The notes beneath the pieces are model-generated. The model was not told the origin of the DNA. It saw nothing but the letters and a program-made list of their open reading frames with translations, and made no database searches. The position numbers and the translations under genes were made by a program. A stretch of 64,000 nucleotides of DNA, from contig PHEW01000009.1 in NCBI GenBank assembly GCA_002841315.1, positions 1 to 64,000 on the forward strand. Reading direction: 5' to 3'. Positions 47,931-61,759 of the stretch are shown in pieces (the stretch's first letter is position 1; each line of letters begins with the position of its first letter). The stretch is from Actinobacteria bacterium HGW-Actinobacteria-4 (GTDB taxonomy: Bacteria > Actinomycetota > Actinomycetes > Actinomycetales > Demequinaceae).

Positions 47931-49608
47931 GGGCTATCACCAACCAGTAGAAGGAATGAGGACCAAAAGTGAGGCGCAGCTTGCCATCGTCCCCGACGTC
48001 CTGGAACGGAGTGTTGGAGACGATGGTCTTGACGGTACGCCCGGCGAAGTCAGGCAGGTCAAGCAGGGTAGAGCACTGATTGGTCGAGAAGTTCATCGCG
48101 ACCAGCACGGACTCCTCCGGGTGAGTGCGCAGGAACGAGAACACCGACGACTCCGACGATGGCACGTCGGCGTAGCCGCCGTCGGCGAAGGCAGGGTGTT
48201 GGGCGCGCGAGGTGAGGAAGCGACGAAGCCAGAAGAGCAACGACGTCGGTTGCATGAGCGAACTCTCGACGTTCACGCCGTTGTAATGGTGCAGCAGGGA
48301 CTGCACGACGGGAAGGTTGAGTGCGCCTGGGTCTGCGCGAGAGAATCCGGCGTTACGGTCCGGCGTCCACTGCATGGGGGTGCGCACCCCGTCGCGGTCT
48401 GGCAGCCACACGTTGTCGCCCATGCCGATCTCGTCCCCGTAGTACAGGCATGGGGTGCCCGGAAGGGACAGGATCAGCGCGTGCGCGAGTTCCATCGCGT
48501 GGCGCGAGTTGTCGAGCAGGGGCGCGAGACGCCTGCGTATCCCGACGTTCGCCTTCATCTGCGGATGCGGCGCGTACCACTCGAACATCTGGCGACGCTC
48601 TTGATCGGTGACCATCTCAAGGGTGAGCTCGTCGTGGTTACGCAAGAACGTGGACCACTGGCCCTTGGCCGGCGGCACGGGAGTTGCGTGCAGGATCTCG
48701 CGCAGCTTGGTCGCGTCTTGTGCCTTGATGGAGTAGAAGATCCGGGGCATGACGGGGAAGTGGAAGCATAGGTGGCACTCGGGCTCTTCCTCGGTGCCGA
48801 AGTACGCTGCCGCCTCTTCTGGCGGTTGATTAGCCTCGGCGAGGAGCACGCGGCCGGGGAACTCGGCGTCAACCATGGCGCGGAACCTGCGCAGGTATTC
48901 GTGGGTGCGAGGGTCGTTCTCGCCGCCGTTCGAGTCATCTTCAAAGAGGTAGGGCACCGCGTCTAGGCGGAATCCGTCGATGCCCTTCTCGAGCCAGAAC
49001 CTGGCGATGTCCATCATCTCCTGCTGAACTTTGGGGTTCTCGAAGTTGAGATCCGGCTGGTGGTGATAGAAGCGGTGCCAGTAGAACTGCTCACGGACGC
49101 TGTCCCATGCCCAGTTTGAGGTTTCGTGATCGGTGAAGATGATGCGCGCGTTCGCCCATTTCTGGTCGGTGTCTGACCACACGTAGTAGTCGCCGTATGG
49201 GCCGTCAGGGTCGGTGCGCGAGGCCTGGAACCACGGGTGCTGGTCCGACGAGTGATTCATCACCAGGTCAATCGTGATCCGCATCCCGCGCTTGTGTACC
49301 TCGGCGATGAGTTCCTCGAAGTCGGCCATCGTGCCGTAGCGGGGGTCGATGGCGCGGTAGTCCGCCACGTCGTAGCCACCGTCCCGCAGGGGTGACGGGT
49401 AGATGGGCGGCAGCCACAAGGCGTCGACGCCCAGCCACGCAAGGTAATCCAACCTCTTGATCAGACCCCGGAGGTCTCCAATGCCGTCACCGTCGCTATC
49501 GTGGAACGCGCGGACCATGACTTCGTAGAACACCGCAGTCCGATACCACAGGGGGTCCGTCATCAGGTTGCGCTCCCGCTTGGGGAGGTTCTTCAGGATG
49601 TTCATCAT
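47923..49608 (-). CDS. treS: Trehalose synthase (maltose alpha-D-glucosyltransferase)
   Basis: 561 aa, GH13. It interconverts trehalose and maltose. [13 protein letters not shown] carries the nucleophile Asp, [17 protein letters not shown] the acid/base Glu, and [11 protein letters not shown] the third acid; [22 protein letters not shown] is typical of TreS. Only the TreS part is present: no maltokinase domain is fused at the C-terminus. ATG 49608 overlaps the glgE stop; a later ATG at 49563 (MTDPLWY, with GGGAG upstream) is also possible. Confidence 0.93.
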
Positions 49609-51605
49609 TCGCGTCGGACTCCTGCCACGTGCGCCATGGTCGCCGCAGGATCAAATCGCACGTAGAACTCTTGACCCCAGGTGTAGGTACTGCCGGTGAG
49701 GACGTCGTCCACGATGATACGGTCGCCCTCATCGAGGCCAATGGCTCTCATGTCCAACCGGATGGTGGCGTCCTGAACGACGTCCGGGTCGAGGCTCACG
49801 GTAACAATCACCGTGTCGGCAATGCCGGTGGGGGACTGGTCGGCATCCAGGTGCTTGGTGAAACACAGGATCGCGGGATTGTTGGTCTTGTGGACCGTGA
49901 GGCCCCGCAGGGCGCGCAGGGCTGGATGCTTGCGGCGTGTCAGGTTCAGAGTCGTCAAGAGGTCAACGATGCCGTACTGGACGGCTTTGGACCAGTCGCG
50001 ATGCTTGAACTCGTATTTCTCATTATCGATGTGTTCCTCTGCGCCGGGGCGCGCGACGTTCTCGACCAGTTCGTAGCCGGTGTAGATCCCGTAGCTGGGG
50101 GAGCCGGTGGCCGCGAGTACCGCACGCGCCTGATGGAGGGCCTTGCCGCCACGCTGCATATCGGGTGTGAGGATGTCGTGAGTCGTGGGCCAGAAGTTGG
50201 GCCGCATGTAGAAGCTGCTGGGCCCTGCGAGTTCGGTGAGGTACTCGGCCATTTCTGGCGCGCTCTGTCGCCACGTGAAGTAGGTGTACGACTGGTGGAA
50301 GCCAATCTTCGCGAGGGTGTGCATCATCGCGGGGCGAGTGAACGCCTCGGACAGGAAGATCACCTCGGGGTGGCTCTCAGCGACATCTGCGAGCAGCCAC
50401 TCCCAGAACTCCAGCGGCTTGGTGTGGGGGTTGTCTACCCGGAACAGCGTGACTCCCGCATCGATCCACACTTCAAGGACGTCGCGCACCGCCTGGTAGA
50501 GCCCAGCGGGGTCGTTGTCGAAGTTCAGCGGGTAGATGTCCTGGTACTTCTTGGGTGGGTTCTCGGCATAGGCGATGGAGCCATCGGCACGAGTAGTGAA
50601 CCACTCTGGGTGCTCGGTGACCCAGGGGTGGTCAGGGGAGCATTGAAGTGCGAGGTCGAGTGCTACTTCGAGATCGAGTTCGCGTGCCTTCGCCACGAAG
50701 TTCCTGAAGGTGCGCATCGTGCCTAGGTCGGGGTGGATGGCATCGTGCCCGCCTTCGGGTGCTCCAATCGCATACGGGCTGCCGGGGTCCTGAGGTTCGG
50801 CCTTCAGCGAGTTGTTGCGCCCCTTCCGGCTGGTCGCGCCGATGGGGTGGATAGGGGTCAGGTAGACCACGTCGAAGCCCATCGCGGCGATGGCGGGAAG
50901 CCGCTTGGTCGCCGTGGTGAACGTGCCCGTTGTCCACTCCCCGGTGGCCTTGTTGAGCCGTGCGCCCTCAGAGCGGGGGAAGATCTCGTACCACGCCGAG
51001 AACAGGGCCTTCTCGCGTTGGACGCGCAACGGATAATCGCGAGATGGGCTCACCCAGTCTCTCAATGGCGCGGCAGTGAGAGCCTCCTTGACGTCCGTGG
51101 ACAGTGCGGGGGCCAGCCGGGCCTCGGGTGCACGCCGGATGTCGGTGAGTGCCGCGATCGCGTCTTTGAGAAGTTGTTGCTTGGCAGGGGGCCGGCGCAC
51201 CTCCTCAAGCGCCCGCGTCAGAACAAGCACGCCTTCGTCGAGCATGAGCTGGACATCAACTCCGGCCCTAATCTTCACTTCCGCGGCATGCGCCCAGGTG
51301 CCTACGGGGTCAGCCCAGGCCTCGACGCGGAAACTATAGTCGCCCTCGATACGCGGGATGTAGTGGACGCGGTAGAGGCTGTTGCCCCAGTCCGCCAGCG
51401 GCATGGGGAGCACGTCTTGGGTGCCGTCGGGCAAGGTGATGACGGCGGTTGCGCCCTCAGCATCGTGACCTTCGCGAAAGATGGTCGCGGTAATGGGAAC
51501 TGCCTCGCCCACGGTCGCGCGCGCGGGCCAGCGTCCCTCTTCAAGCGAGGGGCCCACCCCCACCACGGGGATGCGGCCGATGGACTTGTCACTGACGGAA
51601 GCCAT
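49605..51605 (-). CDS. glgE: Alpha-1,4-glucan:maltose-1-phosphate maltosyltransferase
   Basis: 666 aa, GH13 subfamily 3. It extends alpha-1,4-glucan with maltose from maltose-1-phosphate. The N-terminal beta domain (IPVVGVGPSLEEGRWPARATVGE) and helical insert precede the barrel: VYLTPIHPIGATSRKGRNNSL, nucleophile Asp in TLFRVDNPHTKPLEFWEW and acid/base Glu in IFLSEAFTRPAMM. A leaderless-type promoter lies upstream. First gene of the glgE-treS-glgB unit; the donor-making maltokinase is not beside it. Confidence 0.95.
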   Translation of the reverse strand: MASVSDKSIGRIPVVGVGPSLEEGRWPARATVGEAVPITATIFREGHDAEGATAVITLPDGTQDVLPMPLADWGNSLYRVHYIPRIEGDYSFRVEAWADPVGTWAHAAEVKIRAGVDVQLMLDEGVLVLTRALEEVRRPPAKQQLLKDAIAALTDIRRAPEARLAPALSTDVKEALTAAPLRDWVSPSRDYPLRVQREKALFSAWYEIFPRSEGARLNKATGEWTTGTFTTATKRLPAIAAMGFDVVYLTPIHPIGATSRKGRNNSLKAEPQDPGSPYAIGAPEGGHDAIHPDLGTMRTFRNFVAKARELDLEVALDLALQCSPDHPWVTEHPEWFTTRADGSIAYAENPPKKYQDIYPLNFDNDPAGLYQAVRDVLEVWIDAGVTLFRVDNPHTKPLEFWEWLLADVAESHPEVIFLSEAFTRPAMMHTLAKIGFHQSYTYFTWRQSAPEMAEYLTELAGPSSFYMRPNFWPTTHDILTPDMQRGGKALHQARAVLAATGSPSYGIYTGYELVENVARPGAEEHIDNEKYEFKHRDWSKAVQYGIVDLLTTLNLTRRKHPALRALRGLTVHKTNNPAILCFTKHLDADQSPTGIADTVIVTVSLDPDVVQDATIRLDMRAIGLDEGDRIIVDDVLTGSTYTWGQEFYVRFDPAATMAHVAGVRRE

Positions 51606-51611
51606 ACCCCG

Positions 51612-51617
51612 AACTTA
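51612..51617 (-). promoter_or_regulatory. -10 box of glgE, leaderless layout
   Basis: TAAGTT on the minus strand, then 6 nt to the ATG at 51605. It should drive the glgE-treS-glgB operon. Confidence 0.55.
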
Positions 51618-51879
51618 CCTGGGTTTGGAGGCAGTGTGTAGCGCGCTCGGGGTGCAACCGAATCGGGACGCAGGATGTGGCGCGCACGGCATATATGGGG
51701 CCCACTCCTGCGCGCCAAGAAACACCTGCGTGGGTCAGGCCCAGTCGCGGCACGCACCCGGCGAGGGCTTGACTTCCATCACGATGGGTGGGTGAGAGCC
51801 AGCGCTCGCGAAAGCATGGGTGCCCGACGCGGTGACATGGTGGACGCTATCGTCCGGCTCGAGTGCGATGGCGGCGCCC
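51618..51879. other. Non-genic stretch between glgE and the galT remnant
   Basis: About 260 bp with no credible gene. On the minus strand a stop-free frame (about 51885 down to 51735) reads FEGAAIALEPDDSVHHVTAS and onward with plausible composition, directly after the galT remnant, but has no start or recognisable homology. It may be further decayed coding sequence. Confidence 0.35.
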
Positions 51880-52459
51880 TCAAATCCTCGCCATGGATGG
51901 GCTGGGCGATTCATCGAGTGTGCCGACAGCTCGCAGCAGCGCTGGCGCGATGACGGCAAGCTCTGAGCGTTCCGCGAGCGAGGTCTCGGATAGGAGGCCG
52001 ATCTGCCTATGCGGAAGCACGGTGATCTCGAGGGGCCACCGCGCGGCGAACGGCACGAACCCTTGGCGCACACCCGGCATGCTGGACAACTCGTTGGTGC
52101 GGTGTGCCCAGGCCTCAATCGCGGTGCGCATGCGAAGCGTGCTGAGCTCTCCGAGCGAGCCTGTTGCCGAGGGGCTGTAGCTGAGGACTTCGCGGCGGCC
52201 GCCAGCGACCGCGTCGCATCGAGGCGCGCTGGCGGCAGGTGGACGCGTTCTTGCCGCGCCGTGGCGACTGCGACCCAGTCGCCAGAAGGGGATCGAAGCG
52301 CATGGTGGCGGTTGCCGGGCATTCGGGGAATGCGCGGGCGTCGACTCGCCGCGTAGGAGCGAGTCTGGATACGGGGTCATCGAAGTACGACAACGGGCGA
52401 CCATCGGCGAGCGCGGTCATACACACCGCTTGACTGGGAGCGATCTCAGTTCTGGCCAT
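51880..52459 (-). pseudogene. galT: Degenerate galactose-1-phosphate uridylyltransferase
   Basis: Three minus-strand pieces in different frames read in order as a GalT. Piece 1 (52459 to ~52284) has LADGRPLSYFDDP and TATMRFDPLL. Piece 2 (~52283 to ~52200) continues GDWVAVATARQERVHLPP; a one-base loss separates them. Piece 3 (~52200 to 51880) reads REVLSYSPSATGSLGELS, AIEAWAHRTNELSSMPGVRQ, then jumps to GFVPFAARWPLEITVLPHR near 52062. Both the zinc CxxC region and the catalytic HPH motif are deleted, so it cannot be active. About 193 codons remain of roughly 350-380. Confidence 0.82.
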
Positions 52460-52601
52460 CGGATCGGATGTTGCGCCACGGGCCCGGCGCAAGGCGTTCC
52501 TGTGGCATTCTTATGTGAACGGTCTCATGTACGCCTCGCCATGGGCGGTCGAGTGATCGTGCAGTACGCGAGATACTGGTAGTCGCGAGAGAGGAACAGG
52601 C
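52460..52601. promoter_or_regulatory. Divergent region between galT remnant and lacI
   Basis: 140 bp. It contains TGAACGGTCTCA (52516-52527), whose right half GGTCTCA equals half of the operator at the GH42 promoter (CGGTCTCAG on its other strand); the left half TGAA also fits, with two bases fewer between. It is a likely autoregulatory site, and once would have controlled galT too. Confidence 0.45.
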
Positions 52602-53615
52602 GTGGCGCAGAACGATCGACGGCGGCCTACTATCCAAGATGTTGCCCGAGAAGCCGGGGTCTCGCGAGCGACGGTGTCGAGAGTGCTCAACGGCGGAGTG
52701 TGGGTGTCTGGCGACGCGCTTGCGAGTGTCGAGAAGGCCATCAAGAAGACTGGTTACCGCATCAATCCCCACGCGCGGTCGTTGGCGACTCGCAGGGCTG
52801 GCTCGGTCGCGCTACTCCTCACCGAGTCGTACGAGCGCTTCTTTGAAGACCCCAACTTCTCGCTGATCATGCGCTCGGCGGCAACGGCTTTGGCTGAGCA
52901 TGACTACCCACTGGTCTTGATCCTCGCCGACACTGAGGTCGAGCAGCGCCGAGCCGTCAACTTCTTGACCGGCGGCCACGTAGACGGCGCCCTGTTGCTC
53001 TCTGCGCATCGAGGCAGGCAAGGGTTCCTTGACGACCTCATCGAGGCAGAGGTGCCGCTGATCGCGGGTGGCGTCCCGTTGGGTTTCGAGAACCGTGTGG
53101 CGTACGTCCAGGCGGACGATATTGATGGCGCACGGGTGATGACTCGCTACTTGCTCGGCTTGGGGCGCACCAACATTGCACACATCACTGGGCCGCAAGA
53201 CACGTCCGGCGGCGCTGGCCGGCTGGCTGGCTATCGAGAGGTGATGGGCGCGGCACTCAATGAAGACTTGGTGGCGTACGGAGACTATTCGCGCGCGAGC
53301 GGCGCAGCCGCGATGTCGGAACTGTTGGCGCGCGGTGTCGCGATCGACGCCGTCTTTGCTGGGAACGACCTGATGGCTGCCGGCGCGATGAGCGTCTTGG
53401 CTGAGGCTGGAATCTCAGTTCCCGAGACTATTGCGCTGGCGGGCTTCGACGACGCTCCGGTGGCCGTTGAGACGAGCCCCGCGCTCACCACGATGCGCCA
53501 GCCATTTGAGCGCATCGCCACGGAGATGGTGCGGCTCCTCCTTGACATGATTGACGGTCGGAGTCCGGCACGCGTGAGCTTGTCCACGGAACTTGTGGTG
53601 CGCGAGTCCGCGTAG
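52602..53615 (+). CDS. LacI-family regulator of the galactan locus
   Basis: 337 aa from GTG, with GAGAGGAAC upstream. DNA-binding domain PTIQDVAREAGVSRATVSRVLNGG plus hinge GYRINPHARSLATRRAG, then a sugar-binding core (VFAGNDLMAAGAMSVLAEAGISVPETIALAGFDDAPVA). It precedes the GH42-importer-GH53 genes in the same direction, so galactose or a beta-1,4-galacto-oligosaccharide is the likely inducer. Operator-like sites lie before it and before the GH42 gene. Confidence 0.86.
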   Translation: MAQNDRRRPTIQDVAREAGVSRATVSRVLNGGVWVSGDALASVEKAIKKTGYRINPHARSLATRRAGSVALLLTESYERFFEDPNFSLIMRSAATALAEHDYPLVLILADTEVEQRRAVNFLTGGHVDGALLLSAHRGRQGFLDDLIEAEVPLIAGGVPLGFENRVAYVQADDIDGARVMTRYLLGLGRTNIAHITGPQDTSGGAGRLAGYREVMGAALNEDLVAYGDYSRASGAAAMSELLARGVAIDAVFAGNDLMAAGAMSVLAEAGISVPETIALAGFDDAPVAVETSPALTTMRQPFERIATEMVRLLLDMIDGRSPARVSLSTELVVRESA

Positions 53616-53717
53616 CCTCCGTGCTGCAGCCCCAGGGGCGACTCACTCTTGCAGGGTCTCCGGACATGGGCGCCAGACTGTGCGCGGTTACAGTTCGGTA
53701 AAGAATCTCCGCCTGAC

Positions 53718-53748
53718 TTGACGCGTGCCTAGTGGTGCGGCCTAGACT
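53718..53748 (+). promoter_or_regulatory. Promoter of the galactan operon
   Basis: TTGACG (-35, 53718-53723), a 19-bp spacer and TAGACT (-10, 53743-53748). The spacer is longer than the usual 17. Transcription would start about 53755, leaving a ~65-nt leader before the GH42 start. Confidence 0.6.
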
Positions 53749-53763
53749 GAGACCGGTTTCAGT
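53746..53763. promoter_or_regulatory. LacI-family operator at the galactan promoter
   Basis: ACTGAGACCGGTTTCAGT is an 18-bp palindrome with a single imperfect pair and a central CCGG. It overlaps the -10 box and the expected transcription start, a position suited to repression by the LacI-type protein encoded just upstream. Confidence 0.72.
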
Positions 53764-53822
53764 CAATGATGAGAAACTGGGTTGCTCGAGGCGCCCTGGA
53801 GCTCACGATCCAACGGAGTGTC

Positions 53823-55892
53823 ATGAGAGCAAAGACCTGGCCCACGATTGCTGGCCTCGCGTATGGCGGCGACTACAACCCTGAGCAATGGCCCAGGGAG
53901 GTGTGGGATGAAGATGTGCGCTTGATGCGCGAGGCGGGAGTCTCGCTCGTGAGCGTTGGAATCTTCTCGTGGGCACTCCTCGAGCCCCGCCAAGGGGAGT
54001 TCGACTTTGGATGGCTCGACGAGTTGATTGACCTGCTCCACGCCAACGACATCTCCGTTGACCTGGGCACGCCTACCGCGTCCCCTCCCGCGTGGTTCTT
54101 TGTCGCGAACCCGGACGCGAGGGTCATCTCGCGGGACGGCAGGGTGATGGGCTTCGGCTCGCGCGGCATGGCATCGCACAGCGCGCCCGCCTATAGAGAC
54201 GCAGCCGTGCGGATCGCAACGGAGCTCGCACGCCGCTATGGCAAGCACCCGGCAGTGGTCATGTGGCACGTCCATAACGAGTACGGAGTTCCCGTGGGTG
54301 AGGACTTTTCACCCGCTGCCGTCACAGCCTTTCGGGCGTGGCTGCACCACAAGTACGGGTCGCTCGAAGCCCTCAATGCGGCGTGGGGGACTGCGTTCTG
54401 GGGGCAGCGCTACGGCGTGTGGGAGCACATTGGCGCACCCGCAGTCGCCCCCTCGGTGGTGAACCCGGCGCAGCGGCTGGACTTCGCGCGCTTCACTGAT
54501 CACCAACTGCGCCAGTGCTTTGTTGCGGAGAGGGACGCGATCCGCGCACACTCTGAGTACCCCATCACCACCAACTTCATGGCTAACCAGAGCTTCACCA
54601 CAGACTTGTGGGCTTGGGCGCGGGAACTCGACATCGTGTCGAACGACCACTACCTCACGGCGGCGGATCCCGATGGGCACATCGGTCTCGCACTCGCGGC
54701 GGACCTTACTCGTTCTGTGGCACGCGGGGCTCCTTGGATGCTGATGGAGCACTCGACGTCAGCCGTGAACTGGCAGCCCCGAAACGTGGCGAAGCGCGCG
54801 GGAGAGATGGCGCGCAACTCCCTGGCTCACCTGGCCCGCGGAGCGGACGCGATTCTGTTCTTTCAATGGCGCGCATCGCGTTCCGGTGCGGAGAAGTTTC
54901 ATTCCGCGATGATCCCGCACGCGGGCACGAACTCGCGAGTGTGGCGCGAGGTCGTCGACTTGGGGGCCACGCTCGGTGCGCTGGCTGATGTCCGCGACTC
55001 GCGCGTGAGTGCTGAGGTCGCCATCCTGTGGGACCCGGAGTCGATCTGGGCGCAAGGGCTCGAATGGCACCCCACGGTGGACCACAGCACGGGCGATGCG
55101 GTGCGCACCTACTACGAGCGGTTGTGGCGCGATGGGATCACGGTCGACTTTGTCCACCCTAGTGATGACCTGTCGAGGTATCGCCTTGTCGTCGCACCCG
55201 CCCTCTATCTCCTCACCGCGCAGCACGCGCAGCGGCTCAATTCCTACGTAGCTGACGGCGGAACATTGGTGGTGTCGTACTTCTCGGCCATCGTCAATGA
55301 ACACGACGCCGTGCACTCGGGCCCGTTCGGTTCAGTGCTCGCGGAGTCTCTCGGTGTGGTGGTGGAGGAGTGGCTACCCATGCGCATGGGCGAGAAGGCC
55401 TACCTGACGTGGCATGCCACGGCTGGCGCTGCGATTGAGTGCGACGTCTGGCAAGAAGACCTGCGACTCGAGGGCGCGCAGGCGATGGCGACCTACGCCT
55501 CGGGGCCCGCGGCCGAGCGCCCCGCCATCACGCGCCACGGATACGGCGCGGGCGCGGGATGGTACGTGAGCACGCGCATGGCTGTCAGCGAGCTTGCGCA
55601 AGTGATGCGCGCGGCCTACGCCGATGCAGGCATCGCGGTGTCCGGCTATGCCGAGTCGCTCGAGGTCGTCACTCGTCATGGACTTGATGCTGACTACGTC
55701 TTCGCGATCAACCATGGCGACGCGCCAGCGTCCATGGTGATCGAAGGCACCCAACTTGTTGCCAATGTTCCAGTTGACGGCAACGTCTCGATTCCCGCGG
55801 GAGAAGTGGTCGTCGTGCGATCCCCGCGCCCGGTTGAAGGGGGTGATGGTCAGCGACGAGAGCGGCCCGATGCCGTGATCAACTCCCGTTAG
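53823..55892 (+). CDS. ganA: GH42 beta-galactosidase
   Basis: 689 aa, no signal peptide, so cytosolic. It removes galactose from imported beta-1,4-galacto-oligosaccharides. LAYGGDYNPEQWP is the GH42 N-terminal motif; acid/base Glu about residue 153 in WHVHNEYG and nucleophile Glu about 309 in WMLMEHSTSAVNW. A trimerisation domain and small C-terminal beta domain follow. The frame reaches back to 53766, but ATG 53823 has ACGGAG upstream and fits GH42 starts. Matches Bacillus GanA in role. Confidence 0.92.
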   Translation: MRAKTWPTIAGLAYGGDYNPEQWPREVWDEDVRLMREAGVSLVSVGIFSWALLEPRQGEFDFGWLDELIDLLHANDISVDLGTPTASPPAWFFVANPDARVISRDGRVMGFGSRGMASHSAPAYRDAAVRIATELARRYGKHPAVVMWHVHNEYGVPVGEDFSPAAVTAFRAWLHHKYGSLEALNAAWGTAFWGQRYGVWEHIGAPAVAPSVVNPAQRLDFARFTDHQLRQCFVAERDAIRAHSEYPITTNFMANQSFTTDLWAWARELDIVSNDHYLTAADPDGHIGLALAADLTRSVARGAPWMLMEHSTSAVNWQPRNVAKRAGEMARNSLAHLARGADAILFFQWRASRSGAEKFHSAMIPHAGTNSRVWREVVDLGATLGALADVRDSRVSAEVAILWDPESIWAQGLEWHPTVDHSTGDAVRTYYERLWRDGITVDFVHPSDDLSRYRLVVAPALYLLTAQHAQRLNSYVADGGTLVVSYFSAIVNEHDAVHSGPFGSVLAESLGVVVEEWLPMRMGEKAYLTWHATAGAAIECDVWQEDLRLEGAQAMATYASGPAAERPAITRHGYGAGAGWYVSTRMAVSELAQVMRAAYADAGIAVSGYAESLEVVTRHGLDADYVFAINHGDAPASMVIEGTQLVANVPVDGNVSIPAGEVVVVRSPRPVEGGDGQRRERPDAVINSR

Positions 55893-55948
55893 ATCCACCG
55901 TGGGCGGGGCACACCGGCTCCGCACCACGCTTCTTGAAAGGCAAGGAT

Positions 55949-57187
55949 ATGCGAAACACGATTGCTTGGGGAGCCGCTGTTGTGGCGTCCGCTTTGATTC
56001 TCTCGGCATGCGGGGGCGGCACAGCCGAGCCCACGTCGACCGATGCCGGCCCTGGTGTCGACAACTCTGGGATCGAGTTGACCATTTGGGTCGACGCGAA
56101 CCGCGAGCCCGCTGTTGCGGCCGCTGCCCAGCTGTTCGAAGCTGAAACCGGCGCTACCGTCGTCTTGGTTCAGAAGAACTTTGAAGACTTGCGTACCGAC
56201 TTCATCGCCCAGGTTCCCACCGGCGAGGGTCCTGACATCACCATCGGAGCTCACGACTGGACCGGGGCCTTTGTGACTGCGGGCGTGGTGAACACCGTGG
56301 ACATTGGCGACAAGGCGGCTGACTTCGAGCAAGTCGCTCTCGACGCGTTCTCCTACGACGGCCAACTTTATGGCCTTCCCTATGCGCTCGAAACGATCGC
56401 GCTGATCCAGAACGTTGACCTGGTCGGCACCGACGCTCCGGCGACGTTCGAGGACATGATCGCTACTGGCCTTGCCGCTGGCACCGACCGGCCCTTTGTA
56501 ATCAACGTGGGCGCAGGCGGCGACGGATACACCAGTTACGGTTTCCAGACTTCGTTTGGCGCCCCGGTGTTCGTGCAAGAAGCCGATGGCTCGTACACGA
56601 GCGAAGTCGGCATGGGCGGCCCCGATGGAGTCGCCTTCGCCACCTGGCTGTCGGAGAACGGCATGGCCGGCAACGGCTACTTCAGCACGGACGTCGACTA
56701 CGACATCAACCAGAGCCTGTTCTCTGAAGGTGCCGCGCCGTACACGATCCAGGGGCCGTGGGCCATTGGTACGTACACCGATGCAGGTGTCAACGTTGCC
56801 GTGAACCCCATCCCGTCGGCTGGCGGCGGAACAGCTGCTCCGTTCGTTGGTGTGCAGGGCTTCTACGTGAGCTCGCAGAGCCAAAACACTCTGCTCGCGA
56901 ACGAGTTCTTGATCACCTACATCGCCACTGAAGAAGCTCAGCGTGCGCTCTACGACGCCGACCCGCGGATCCCGGCCTACATTGCGGTTGCCGAGCAGGT
57001 CGCTTCCGACCCGATCGTCGCGGGCTTCATCGCTTCGGCACAGAACGGTGTGCCGATGCCGTCGATTCCTGAGATGGGTTCCGTGTGGGACTTCTGGAAC
57101 GCTGCTGAAGCGGCGATCGTCTCTGGTGCCGACCCGGAGTCAACGTGGCTGCAGATGATTGCGGACCTCGAGGCTGCGATTAGCTAG
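55949..57187 (+). CDS. ganS: Sugar ABC transporter solute-binding lipoprotein (galacto-oligosaccharide)
   Basis: 412 aa. Lipobox LILSACGGG gives surface anchoring. The mature protein is a MalE-like binding protein (IELTIWVDANREPAVAAAAQLFEAETGATVVLV, GEGPDITIGAHDWTGAF, YAVVVE-type hinges such as FVGVQGFYVSSQS). Between GH42 and MalF/MalG-type permeases it should bind beta-1,4-galacto-oligosaccharides like GanS. ATG 55949 has AAGG upstream; a TTG five codons earlier is less likely. Confidence 0.88.
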   Translation: MRNTIAWGAAVVASALILSACGGGTAEPTSTDAGPGVDNSGIELTIWVDANREPAVAAAAQLFEAETGATVVLVQKNFEDLRTDFIAQVPTGEGPDITIGAHDWTGAFVTAGVVNTVDIGDKAADFEQVALDAFSYDGQLYGLPYALETIALIQNVDLVGTDAPATFEDMIATGLAAGTDRPFVINVGAGGDGYTSYGFQTSFGAPVFVQEADGSYTSEVGMGGPDGVAFATWLSENGMAGNGYFSTDVDYDINQSLFSEGAAPYTIQGPWAIGTYTDAGVNVAVNPIPSAGGGTAAPFVGVQGFYVSSQSQNTLLANEFLITYIATEEAQRALYDADPRIPAYIAVAEQVASDPIVAGFIASAQNGVPMPSIPEMGSVWDFWNAAEAAIVSGADPESTWLQMIADLEAAIS

Positions 57188-57194
57188 ATCCACT

Positions 57195-57238
57195 GTTGTC
57201 CTGGGCGGATTGCCGCACGGTAATCCGCCCAGGACAAC
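57195..57238 (+). terminator. Strong 17-bp hairpin after the solute-binding-protein gene
   Basis: GTTGTCCTGGGCGGATT (57195-57211) and its exact complement (57222-57238) flank a 10-nt loop, 8 bp past the stop codon and 46 bp before the next start. No T-tract follows. As with rhaS, it probably shields the upstream mRNA and lowers downstream expression (inference). Confidence 0.8.
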
Positions 57239-57284
57239 CACCTGCTAGCCCCACGAAGGCCACCGAACTCAAGGAGGAGACGCG

Positions 57285-58904
57285 ATGAGCGTTCGGCCAT
57301 CTCACGCCACGACCGGCGCCGGTCGACCATCACCTGCGGGCGAGCCGCACTCGCGCCAGTGGCGCGGCCTCGGCATTGGGTTCTTGATCAAGCTGCTACT
57401 GATGGGCATTGTCAACGCTCTGGGCGTTGCGGTCGTCCTCGCCGCCTGGGCGTCGGAGTCCTGGGCAATTCTTGGCGCCATGGTCGTGATCGTGGTGGTG
57501 GTGGACTGGATCTACTTCTCCAAGCGCGCACTTCCACTCAAGTACCTGACCCCCGGCCTCATCTTCCTCGCTATCTTCCAACTCTTCACGATGGCGTACA
57601 CAGGCTATGTCGCCTTCACGAACTACGGCACCGGCCACGCGGGATCGCAGACGCAAGCGGTTGACGCGCTCCTCATCCAGAACGAACGCAGGCTCGAGAC
57701 TTCGCCGTCATTCGTGTTGTCCATCGTGCGCGATGGCGACGAACTCGGCTTCGCGATCGTCGTCGACGGCGCGGTACGCGTGGGATCTCCAGAGTCTCCC
57801 TTGACCGAGGCACCTGACGCCGAGGTCGACCAGGCGGGTCGGGTCGTGTCACTGCCAGATTGGGAGGTCGTGAGCCGCGCCGAGCTGCTCAGCGACCGGG
57901 GACTTCAGCAAGCAGTCGTCGACCTGCGCGTGCCCGTTTCCGATGAGCCCGAAGACGGCTCCATCCGCACCAGGGAGGGCTCCACCGGTGCGATATATCG
58001 ATCCGTGCTGGAGTGGGACCCTGACGCACAGACGATGACCAACGTCGACACCGGAACCGTGTACTCCGTGACTGACCGCGGCAGGTTCGAGGCACCCGAC
58101 GGAACACAGTTGCCGGTGGGGTGGTACGTCACGGTCGGGTTTGAGAACTTCACTCGCGCCGTCACCGACAGCAACTACTCGACGCCGTTGTTGAGGGTCG
58201 CCGGGTGGACGTTCGCTTTCGCGATACTGACCGTGTTGTCGAGCTTCATCCTTGGCTTGATCCTCGCGATTGTGTACAACGACCCACGCGTGCGCGGGCG
58301 CAAGTTCATTCGCACGTTGTTCATCTTGCCGTACGCCTTCCCCGCGTTCATGTCGGGGCTGTTGTGGCGCGGCATGTTGAATCCGGAGTACGGGATCATC
58401 AACGAGTTCTTCTTCATGGACGCGTACATCCCCTGGCTGAGTGATCCTTGGCTCGCCAAGTTTGCAATCCTCTACGTCAACCTCTGGCTCAGTTACCCCT
58501 ATTGGTTCCTGGTTTGTACCGGTGCGCTACAGGCGCTGCCCACGGAGACCATGGAGGCCGCGCGGATCGACGGAGCCGGGCGCTGGCGCACGTTCCGATC
58601 CGTCACGATGCCGCTCATCACCGTCTCGACCGCTCCACTCGCGATTGCGTCGTTCGCCTTCAACTTCAACAACTTCACGCTGATCTACTTCTTGACCGAG
58701 GGGAGACCGCGCTTCACCGATACCTCTGCGCCGCTGGGCCACACGGATATCCTCATTTCCGCCATCTATCAGATCTCGGGAGTGGCAGGCGGGCGCGCAG
58801 ACTACGGCTTGGCAAGCGCGCTCTCGATCATCGTGTTCATTGTGGTGGGTGCCATTTCAGCGCTCGCGTTCCGCCAGACCCGCAAGCTCGAGGAGATGAA
58901 CTGA
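57285..58904 (+). CDS. ganP: MalF-type ABC transporter permease (galacto-oligosaccharide)
   Basis: 539 aa. AAGGAGGAGACGCG precedes the ATG. Three N-terminal helices, a large extracytoplasmic domain (~residues 120-295, MalF P2-like) and the permease core. The EAA loop reads METMEAARIDGAGRWRTFRSVTMPLI. It pairs with the next permease. The big external loop is typical of MalF/GanP. No ATPase gene is nearby, so a shared MsmX/MsiK-type ATPase must power it. Confidence 0.9.
   Translation: MSVRPSHATTGAGRPSPAGEPHSRQWRGLGIGFLIKLLLMGIVNALGVAVVLAAWASESWAILGAMVVIVVVVDWIYFSKRALPLKYLTPGLIFLAIFQLFTMAYTGYVAFTNYGTGHAGSQTQAVDALLIQNERRLETSPSFVLSIVRDGDELGFAIVVDGAVRVGSPESPLTEAPDAEVDQAGRVVSLPDWEVVSRAELLSDRGLQQAVVDLRVPVSDEPEDGSIRTREGSTGAIYRSVLEWDPDAQTMTNVDTGTVYSVTDRGRFEAPDGTQLPVGWYVTVGFENFTRAVTDSNYSTPLLRVAGWTFAFAILTVLSSFILGLILAIVYNDPRVRGRKFIRTLFILPYAFPAFMSGLLWRGMLNPEYGIINEFFFMDAYIPWLSDPWLAKFAILYVNLWLSYPYWFLVCTGALQALPTETMEAARIDGAGRWRTFRSVTMPLITVSTAPLAIASFAFNFNNFTLIYFLTEGRPRFTDTSAPLGHTDILISAIYQISGVAGGRADYGLASALSIIVFIVVGAISALAFRQTRKLEEMN

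Positions 58905-59788: not shown

Positions 59789-61759
<1,971 letters not shown>

Follow-up and report, generated by a model that had tools for sequence, protein, structure and literature searches.

In the window (the whole stretch of 64,000 nucleotides analyzed here), the segment that separates glgE from a divergently transcribed LacI-family gene very probably holds a decayed, redundant galT-galK pair. Similarity to class I GalT was found on the minus strand at 51889-52459, in three frames and as four pieces in order, and was followed by the tail of a galK (Table 1). The original prediction, which covered 51880-52459, was right in naming a decayed galT, given the similarity and the lesions: GalT similarity was present in all three minus-strand frames by profile and tblastn searches, in line with Pfam and NCBIfam. 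On the other hand, it overlooked the galK tail, and the true feature is a galT-galK remnant about 145 bp longer.

Table 1. Remnant pieces and neighboring genes, with their positions in the window.
Feature	Position	Strand	Evidence
glgE (maltosyltransferase), next gene downstream of remnant	49605..51605	-	Pfam GlgE_dom_N_S, GLGE_C
galK remnant (C-terminal end including stop codon), joined to galT interior	51735..51887	-	positions 338-385 of 386 in GalK profile (i-E 2.8e-7); NCBIfam galactokinase 315-360 of 363, E 0.0028
galT remnant piece 4, frame of piece 3, about residues 259-312	51889..52062	-	GalT profile i-E 3.4e-17; tblastn 59% over 54 aa, E 1e-15
galT remnant piece 3 (third of the frames), residues ~144-191	52057..52212	-	GalT profile i-E 2e-17
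galT remnant piece 2 (a different frame), reaching residue ~90	52215..52292	-	GalT profile i-E 1.5e-6
galT remnant piece 1 (N-terminal part), reaching residue ~67 of intact GalT	52283..52459	-	GalT profile i-E 1.7e-10; tblastn 48% over 42 aa
LacI-family regulator, divergent from remnant	52602..53615	+	Pfam LacI, Peripla_BP_3
GH42 beta-galactosidase, first enzyme gene of galactan operon	53766..55892	+	Pfam Glyco_hydro_42, E 1.5e-142
ABC transporter genes (binding protein and permease) between GH42 and GH53	55934-58904
GH53 endo-galactanase-type gene, end of galactan operon	59789..61759	+	Pfam Glyco_hydro_53, E 7.6e-122

GalT and GalK similarity, lesions and motifs

A GalT profile built from 33 intact GalTs, when run on all stop-to-stop frames in the window (1506), matched the four remnant pieces only, and the genome's own intact GalT, used as the tblastn query, showed 59% identity to the remnant over 54 aa (E 1e-15). 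The family models gave matches below their curated cut-offs: PF02744 (E 4.8e-4) and PF01087 (E 0.0097) in Pfam, and PRK11720 (E 1.1e-8) and TIGR00209 (E 1.2e-5) in NCBIfam. The GalK profile matched the window at the remnant tail only; this tail of about 48 aa runs to the natural protein end, and its stop codon is located 129 bp before the glgE start. The tail, whose best identity was 27 of 49, to a GalK from outside the genus, has too little length for placement in a tree; four rows of the comparison did not overlap with it. In 1000 dinucleotide shuffles of 51735-52492, scored for both proteins, neither observed score was reached: 70.5 bits for GalT (at most 28.1 bits in shuffles) and 42.0 bits for the GalK tail (at most 28.5 bits). 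This significant similarity to part of GalK (i-E 2.8e-7) is that of a galK pseudogene. Adjacent to the galK tail, a possible galE remnant was not accepted (best E 0.091).

At least four lesions were identified, with residue numbers counted on intact GalT: a frame change near galT residue 66; the loss of about residues 91-143 (about 53 codons) with a change of frame; the in-frame loss of about residues 192-258 (about 67 codons), HPHGQ among them; and a deletion leading from galT residue ~312 to about galK residue 362, again with a change of frame. The two changes of frame and two deletions inside galT that had been predicted were borne out by tblastn and alignment, and a third deletion was added here. 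With several GalT segments in correct order along one strand and disabling lesions of this kind, the remnant is a predicted pseudogene of class I galT. The HPH motif and single open frame of a functional GalT were not found in the remnant, in which the motif region is deleted and the similarity is spread over three frames.

The HPHGQ motif was kept in all 33 intact GalTs aligned and is deleted in the remnant, which bears out the predicted loss of the catalytic HPH. A CxxC pair of this sort in GalT binds zinc. This pair precedes the NYDV stretch in nine of the 33 aligned intact GalTs and is missing in the other 24; its cysteines were absent from all ten intact GalTs of the genus. The original prediction attributed the loss of the zinc CxxC to a deletion: the stretch covering this position is indeed gone, but the cysteines were probably never present. 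Since none of the ten GalTs of the genus has the pair, and since the remnant falls in the tree with the side of 22 GalTs without it (split 98/98), loss of the zinc cysteines was probably not an event of the decay.

The remnant showed 42-57% identity to the 33 GalTs (best 101 of 176, to that of G011), and its branch length was 1.86 versus a median end branch of 0.12. When the remnant was constrained to group with the genus, with the intact GalT of its own genome, or with the GalTs of another family, the AU p values were 0.42, 0.41, and 0.37, respectively; none was rejected, and the remnant may stem from within or from outside the genus. There was no match for a plasmid source in the plasmid collection. 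GC contents at the three codon positions were 0.70/0.58/0.74 in the remnant and 0.70/0.50/0.75 in intact galT; a coding signal persists but is fading. The long branch and raised second-position GC (0.58 vs 0.50) fit relaxed selection.

The same data bear on two other explanations. Assembly or sequencing error might have disrupted an intact galT-galK pair, the genome being in 17 contigs and the evidence coming from the assembly; however, at least four lesions, including three large deletions (about 53 codons, about 67 codons, and most of galK), are unlike base-call errors, as are the branch length of 1.86 and the 42-57% identity to the 33 GalTs, and we regard this explanation as scarcely credible. 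It is also very unlikely that 51880-52404, where the frame is open for 174 codons and the coding GC pattern is partly kept (0.70/0.58/0.74), is a short functional gene assembled from segments of GalT: only the last two thirds of the frame align with GalT, HPHGQ is absent, the start is located in another frame of the galT N-terminus, second-position GC is up, and the shortened form was not seen among the 43 congeneric stretches. In favor of a decayed galT-galK pair, we counted the shuffles (0/1000 for either score) and the usual galT-galK order elsewhere, while a relative with an intact galT-galK pair at the glgE site was not found (0/43 glgE stretches and 0/80 LacI loci).

Under the preferred reading of a decayed pair, an intact galT-galK pair would formerly have been present between glgE and the divergent LacI gene. 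Redundancy with the intact galT and galK-galE elsewhere in the genome may have allowed its decay through one change of frame plus three deletions, with the final deletion joining the galT interior to the galK tail, and neither GalT nor GalK is predicted to be made from the remnant now. The pair may either have arrived with the LacI segment by transfer or be an old resident of the glgE site.

Intact galactose genes and the site beside glgE

One intact galT was found in the genome carrying the window (referred to as the window genome), at G000:C1:164285-165451 (L001 1312-2487), with a LacI-family gene upstream of it and a GH42 gene nearby; its product of 391 aa scored above the TIGR00209 cut-off and contained HPHGQ. 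The galK gene (C1:195124-196311) and galE just downstream were both open frames. The broken pair is redundant because of these intact copies. A second galT had been suggested as one possibility, and the search for other galT, galK, and galE genes located all of them, at C1:164285-165451 and C1:195 kb (galK-galE). A search of the window genome with the intact GalT (E 0.001) detected that galT and three of the window pieces only; ahead of galK at C1:195 kb it showed no remnant of galT. We rejected the idea that the window genome has lost galactose metabolism, since intact galT, galK, and galE were found; from this gene content, galactose use is predicted not to have been lost. The alternative suggestion, a switch to another galactose route, found no support: the window genome encodes GalT together with a GalU-like enzyme, and PF01704 enzymes are absent from it.

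A galK follows galT on the same strand in 38 of 39 galT loci (32 of 33 distinct), and the intact galT of the window genome is the sole exception; thus, galT and galK are separated in this genome. In ten of the 33 distinct loci, galT lies divergent to a gene of the LacI family. The window genome also has a second galactokinase-like GHMP kinase (C15:67183; L003 1417-2655), which scored below the TIGR00131 cut-off and was about 40-44% identical to the first galactokinase; similar second copies were present in most genomes of the genus.

The site of the remnant and its LacI are unusual within the genus. In the 43 remaining genomes of the genus, the interval from glgE to GH42 contains a single LacI-family gene, on the strand of glgE, in 20 (gap of about 1.2-1.5 kb) and no gene in 13 (164-326 bp); ten have no GH42 on the glgE stretch examined, some of these stretches ending at contig ends. 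The gap in the window, about 2.16 kb with the remnant and LacI on the GH42 strand, was unique among the stretches seen. In a tree of 34 LacI proteins (site rows limited to more than 45% identity, and the split LacI of G009 excluded), the window LacI grouped with LacIs of seven congeners at another site (100/98), beside which lies a cluster that we take to be arabinose-type; a single group of the window LacI with the 20 site LacIs was rejected (AU p 1.6e-6). The remnant is divergent from the galactan regulator in the window, as predicted, but this regulator differs in type from the LacI that congeners carry at the site. Two weak operator-like palindromes were found in 51600-53800, both within the remnant.

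In 80 related LacI loci, galT was beside LacI in none and several kb away in three. One locus, L141 from a MAG, had the same order as the window on one strand (LacI, GH42, binding protein, two permeases, and GH53), with a frame other than galT upstream of LacI, presumably a maltokinase. The window GH42, SBP, and MalF paired with this locus in quick trees of 43, 37, and 14 rows (SH-aLRT 96, 92, and 93, respectively). Transfer of the galactan operon as a block was considered, but the AU rejections in these trees (p 1.4e-4, 1.3e-3, and 1.3e-3) do not demonstrate it, because rows of other genera also lie among the Demequina rows there. Three loci recorded as Sporosarcina (L172), an Acidobacteria MAG (L187), and a Hyphomicrobiales MAG (L206) had actinobacterial-looking LacI loci with 58-65% identity to the query; these records are possibly mislabelled or contaminated.

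No galT was found in the 43 congeneric glgE stretches, two of them shortened by contig ends. An intact galK-galE is located directly upstream of glgE, on the glgE strand, in G003 and G053 (L129 2095-4344 and L130 2617-4902), and the end of a galE, with 68% identity over 44 aa, is at the same place in G013 at a contig edge (L131 1-132); gal genes beside glgE are thus not unique to the window. These three genomes belonged to the group next to that of the window in the GlgE tree, with a support of only 83/88. In G009, a one-contig genome, TreS and LacI each occurred as two adjoining, frame-shift-like pieces (L053 5657-7331 and 9519-10519), which are either real lesions or sequencing errors.

GalT and UDP-glucose pyrophosphorylases in the genus

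The genus survey consisted of 44 Demequina genomes including the window genome (G000), the genus of which was inferred. GalT (PF01087) was present in ten and absent in 34, whereas the UDPGP pyrophosphorylase (PF01704) was present in 40, with the copy of G042 in fragments. A full-length GalU-like match (E < 1e-79, all below the curated cut-off) was found in four genomes (G000, G019, G039, and G046), exactly those without UDPGP, and the two enzymes were mutually exclusive in the 44 genomes. Weak GalU matches in 30 other genomes, mostly over part of the model and in a few cases over most of it, were taken for other nucleotidyltransferases. All 44 genomes had a GalK match at E 1e-40, with at least 54% identity in 43 and only 37% in G007, and all 34 GalT-less genomes had both UDPGP and this match. 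GalT was kept by all four GalU genomes and by six of the 40 UDPGP genomes (Fisher p 0.0015, descent ignored), and no genome was without both GalT and UDPGP. On the GlgE tree (43 rows; G007 dropped because its stretch was too short), two changes were needed for GalU and six for GalT, so that the link between GalT and GalU/UDPGP depends on a small number of events. Among 297 genomes belonging to the order, 36 had GalT and UDPGP, 112 GalT only, 92 UDPGP only, and 57 neither (Fisher p 7e-11, descent ignored), on the assumption that the same 297 genomes underlie both counts; GalT was called with a 109-residue remnant query at E 1e-6, by which some GalTs may be missed, and one sub-cut-off UDPGP match (G168) was counted as absent.

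For many GalT-less congeners, though not for the window genome, gene content makes another galactose route plausible. We tentatively consider it possible that the UDP-glucose pyrophosphorylase was exchanged across Demequina and that UDPGP may use galactose-1-phosphate, such that GalK, UDPGP, and GalE would replace GalT; GalT would then have been lost repeatedly (34 of 40 UDPGP genomes) and kept in all four GalU genomes, the remnant being one scar of this process. In work of 2013 on Bifidobacterium bifidum uridylyltransferases, De Bruyn and others reportedly found that a Bifidobacterium pyrophosphorylase accepts galactose-1-phosphate. Our estimate for this replacement was lowered slightly because a galT1 transposon mutant of Bifidobacterium breve, as described in an excerpt of PMC4252021, cannot grow on galactose, which argues against it. 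Galactose salvage by a UDP-sugar pyrophosphorylase is reported for Leishmania major (PMC4722067). A thin literature search found GalT loss in Demequina not named.

The remnant is a routine scar of a redundant pair, an ordinary leftover with no pathway loss. It is also a pointer: most genomes of the genus keep a galactokinase without GalT, in a pattern that tracks the type of UDP-glucose pyrophosphorylase, and whether the UDPGP enzyme can replace GalT is a pathway question testable in culturable type strains.

Comparison with known systems

The remnant resembles class I galT (TIGR00209; PF01087, PF02744) in that its four pieces align in order on one strand, and differs by its frame change, three deletions, absence of HPHGQ, and scores below every curated cut-off. 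Its tail aligns with the last ~48 residues of galactokinase (galK; TIGR00131) and has the same natural end, whereas about 85-90% of that gene is missing. With the galT-galK operons found in Demequina and in further families of the order, it shares the gene order on one strand and, as in some of them (10/33), a divergent LacI gene; it differs from these operons in being decayed, in having no galE alongside, and in adjoining glgE and the galactan operon.
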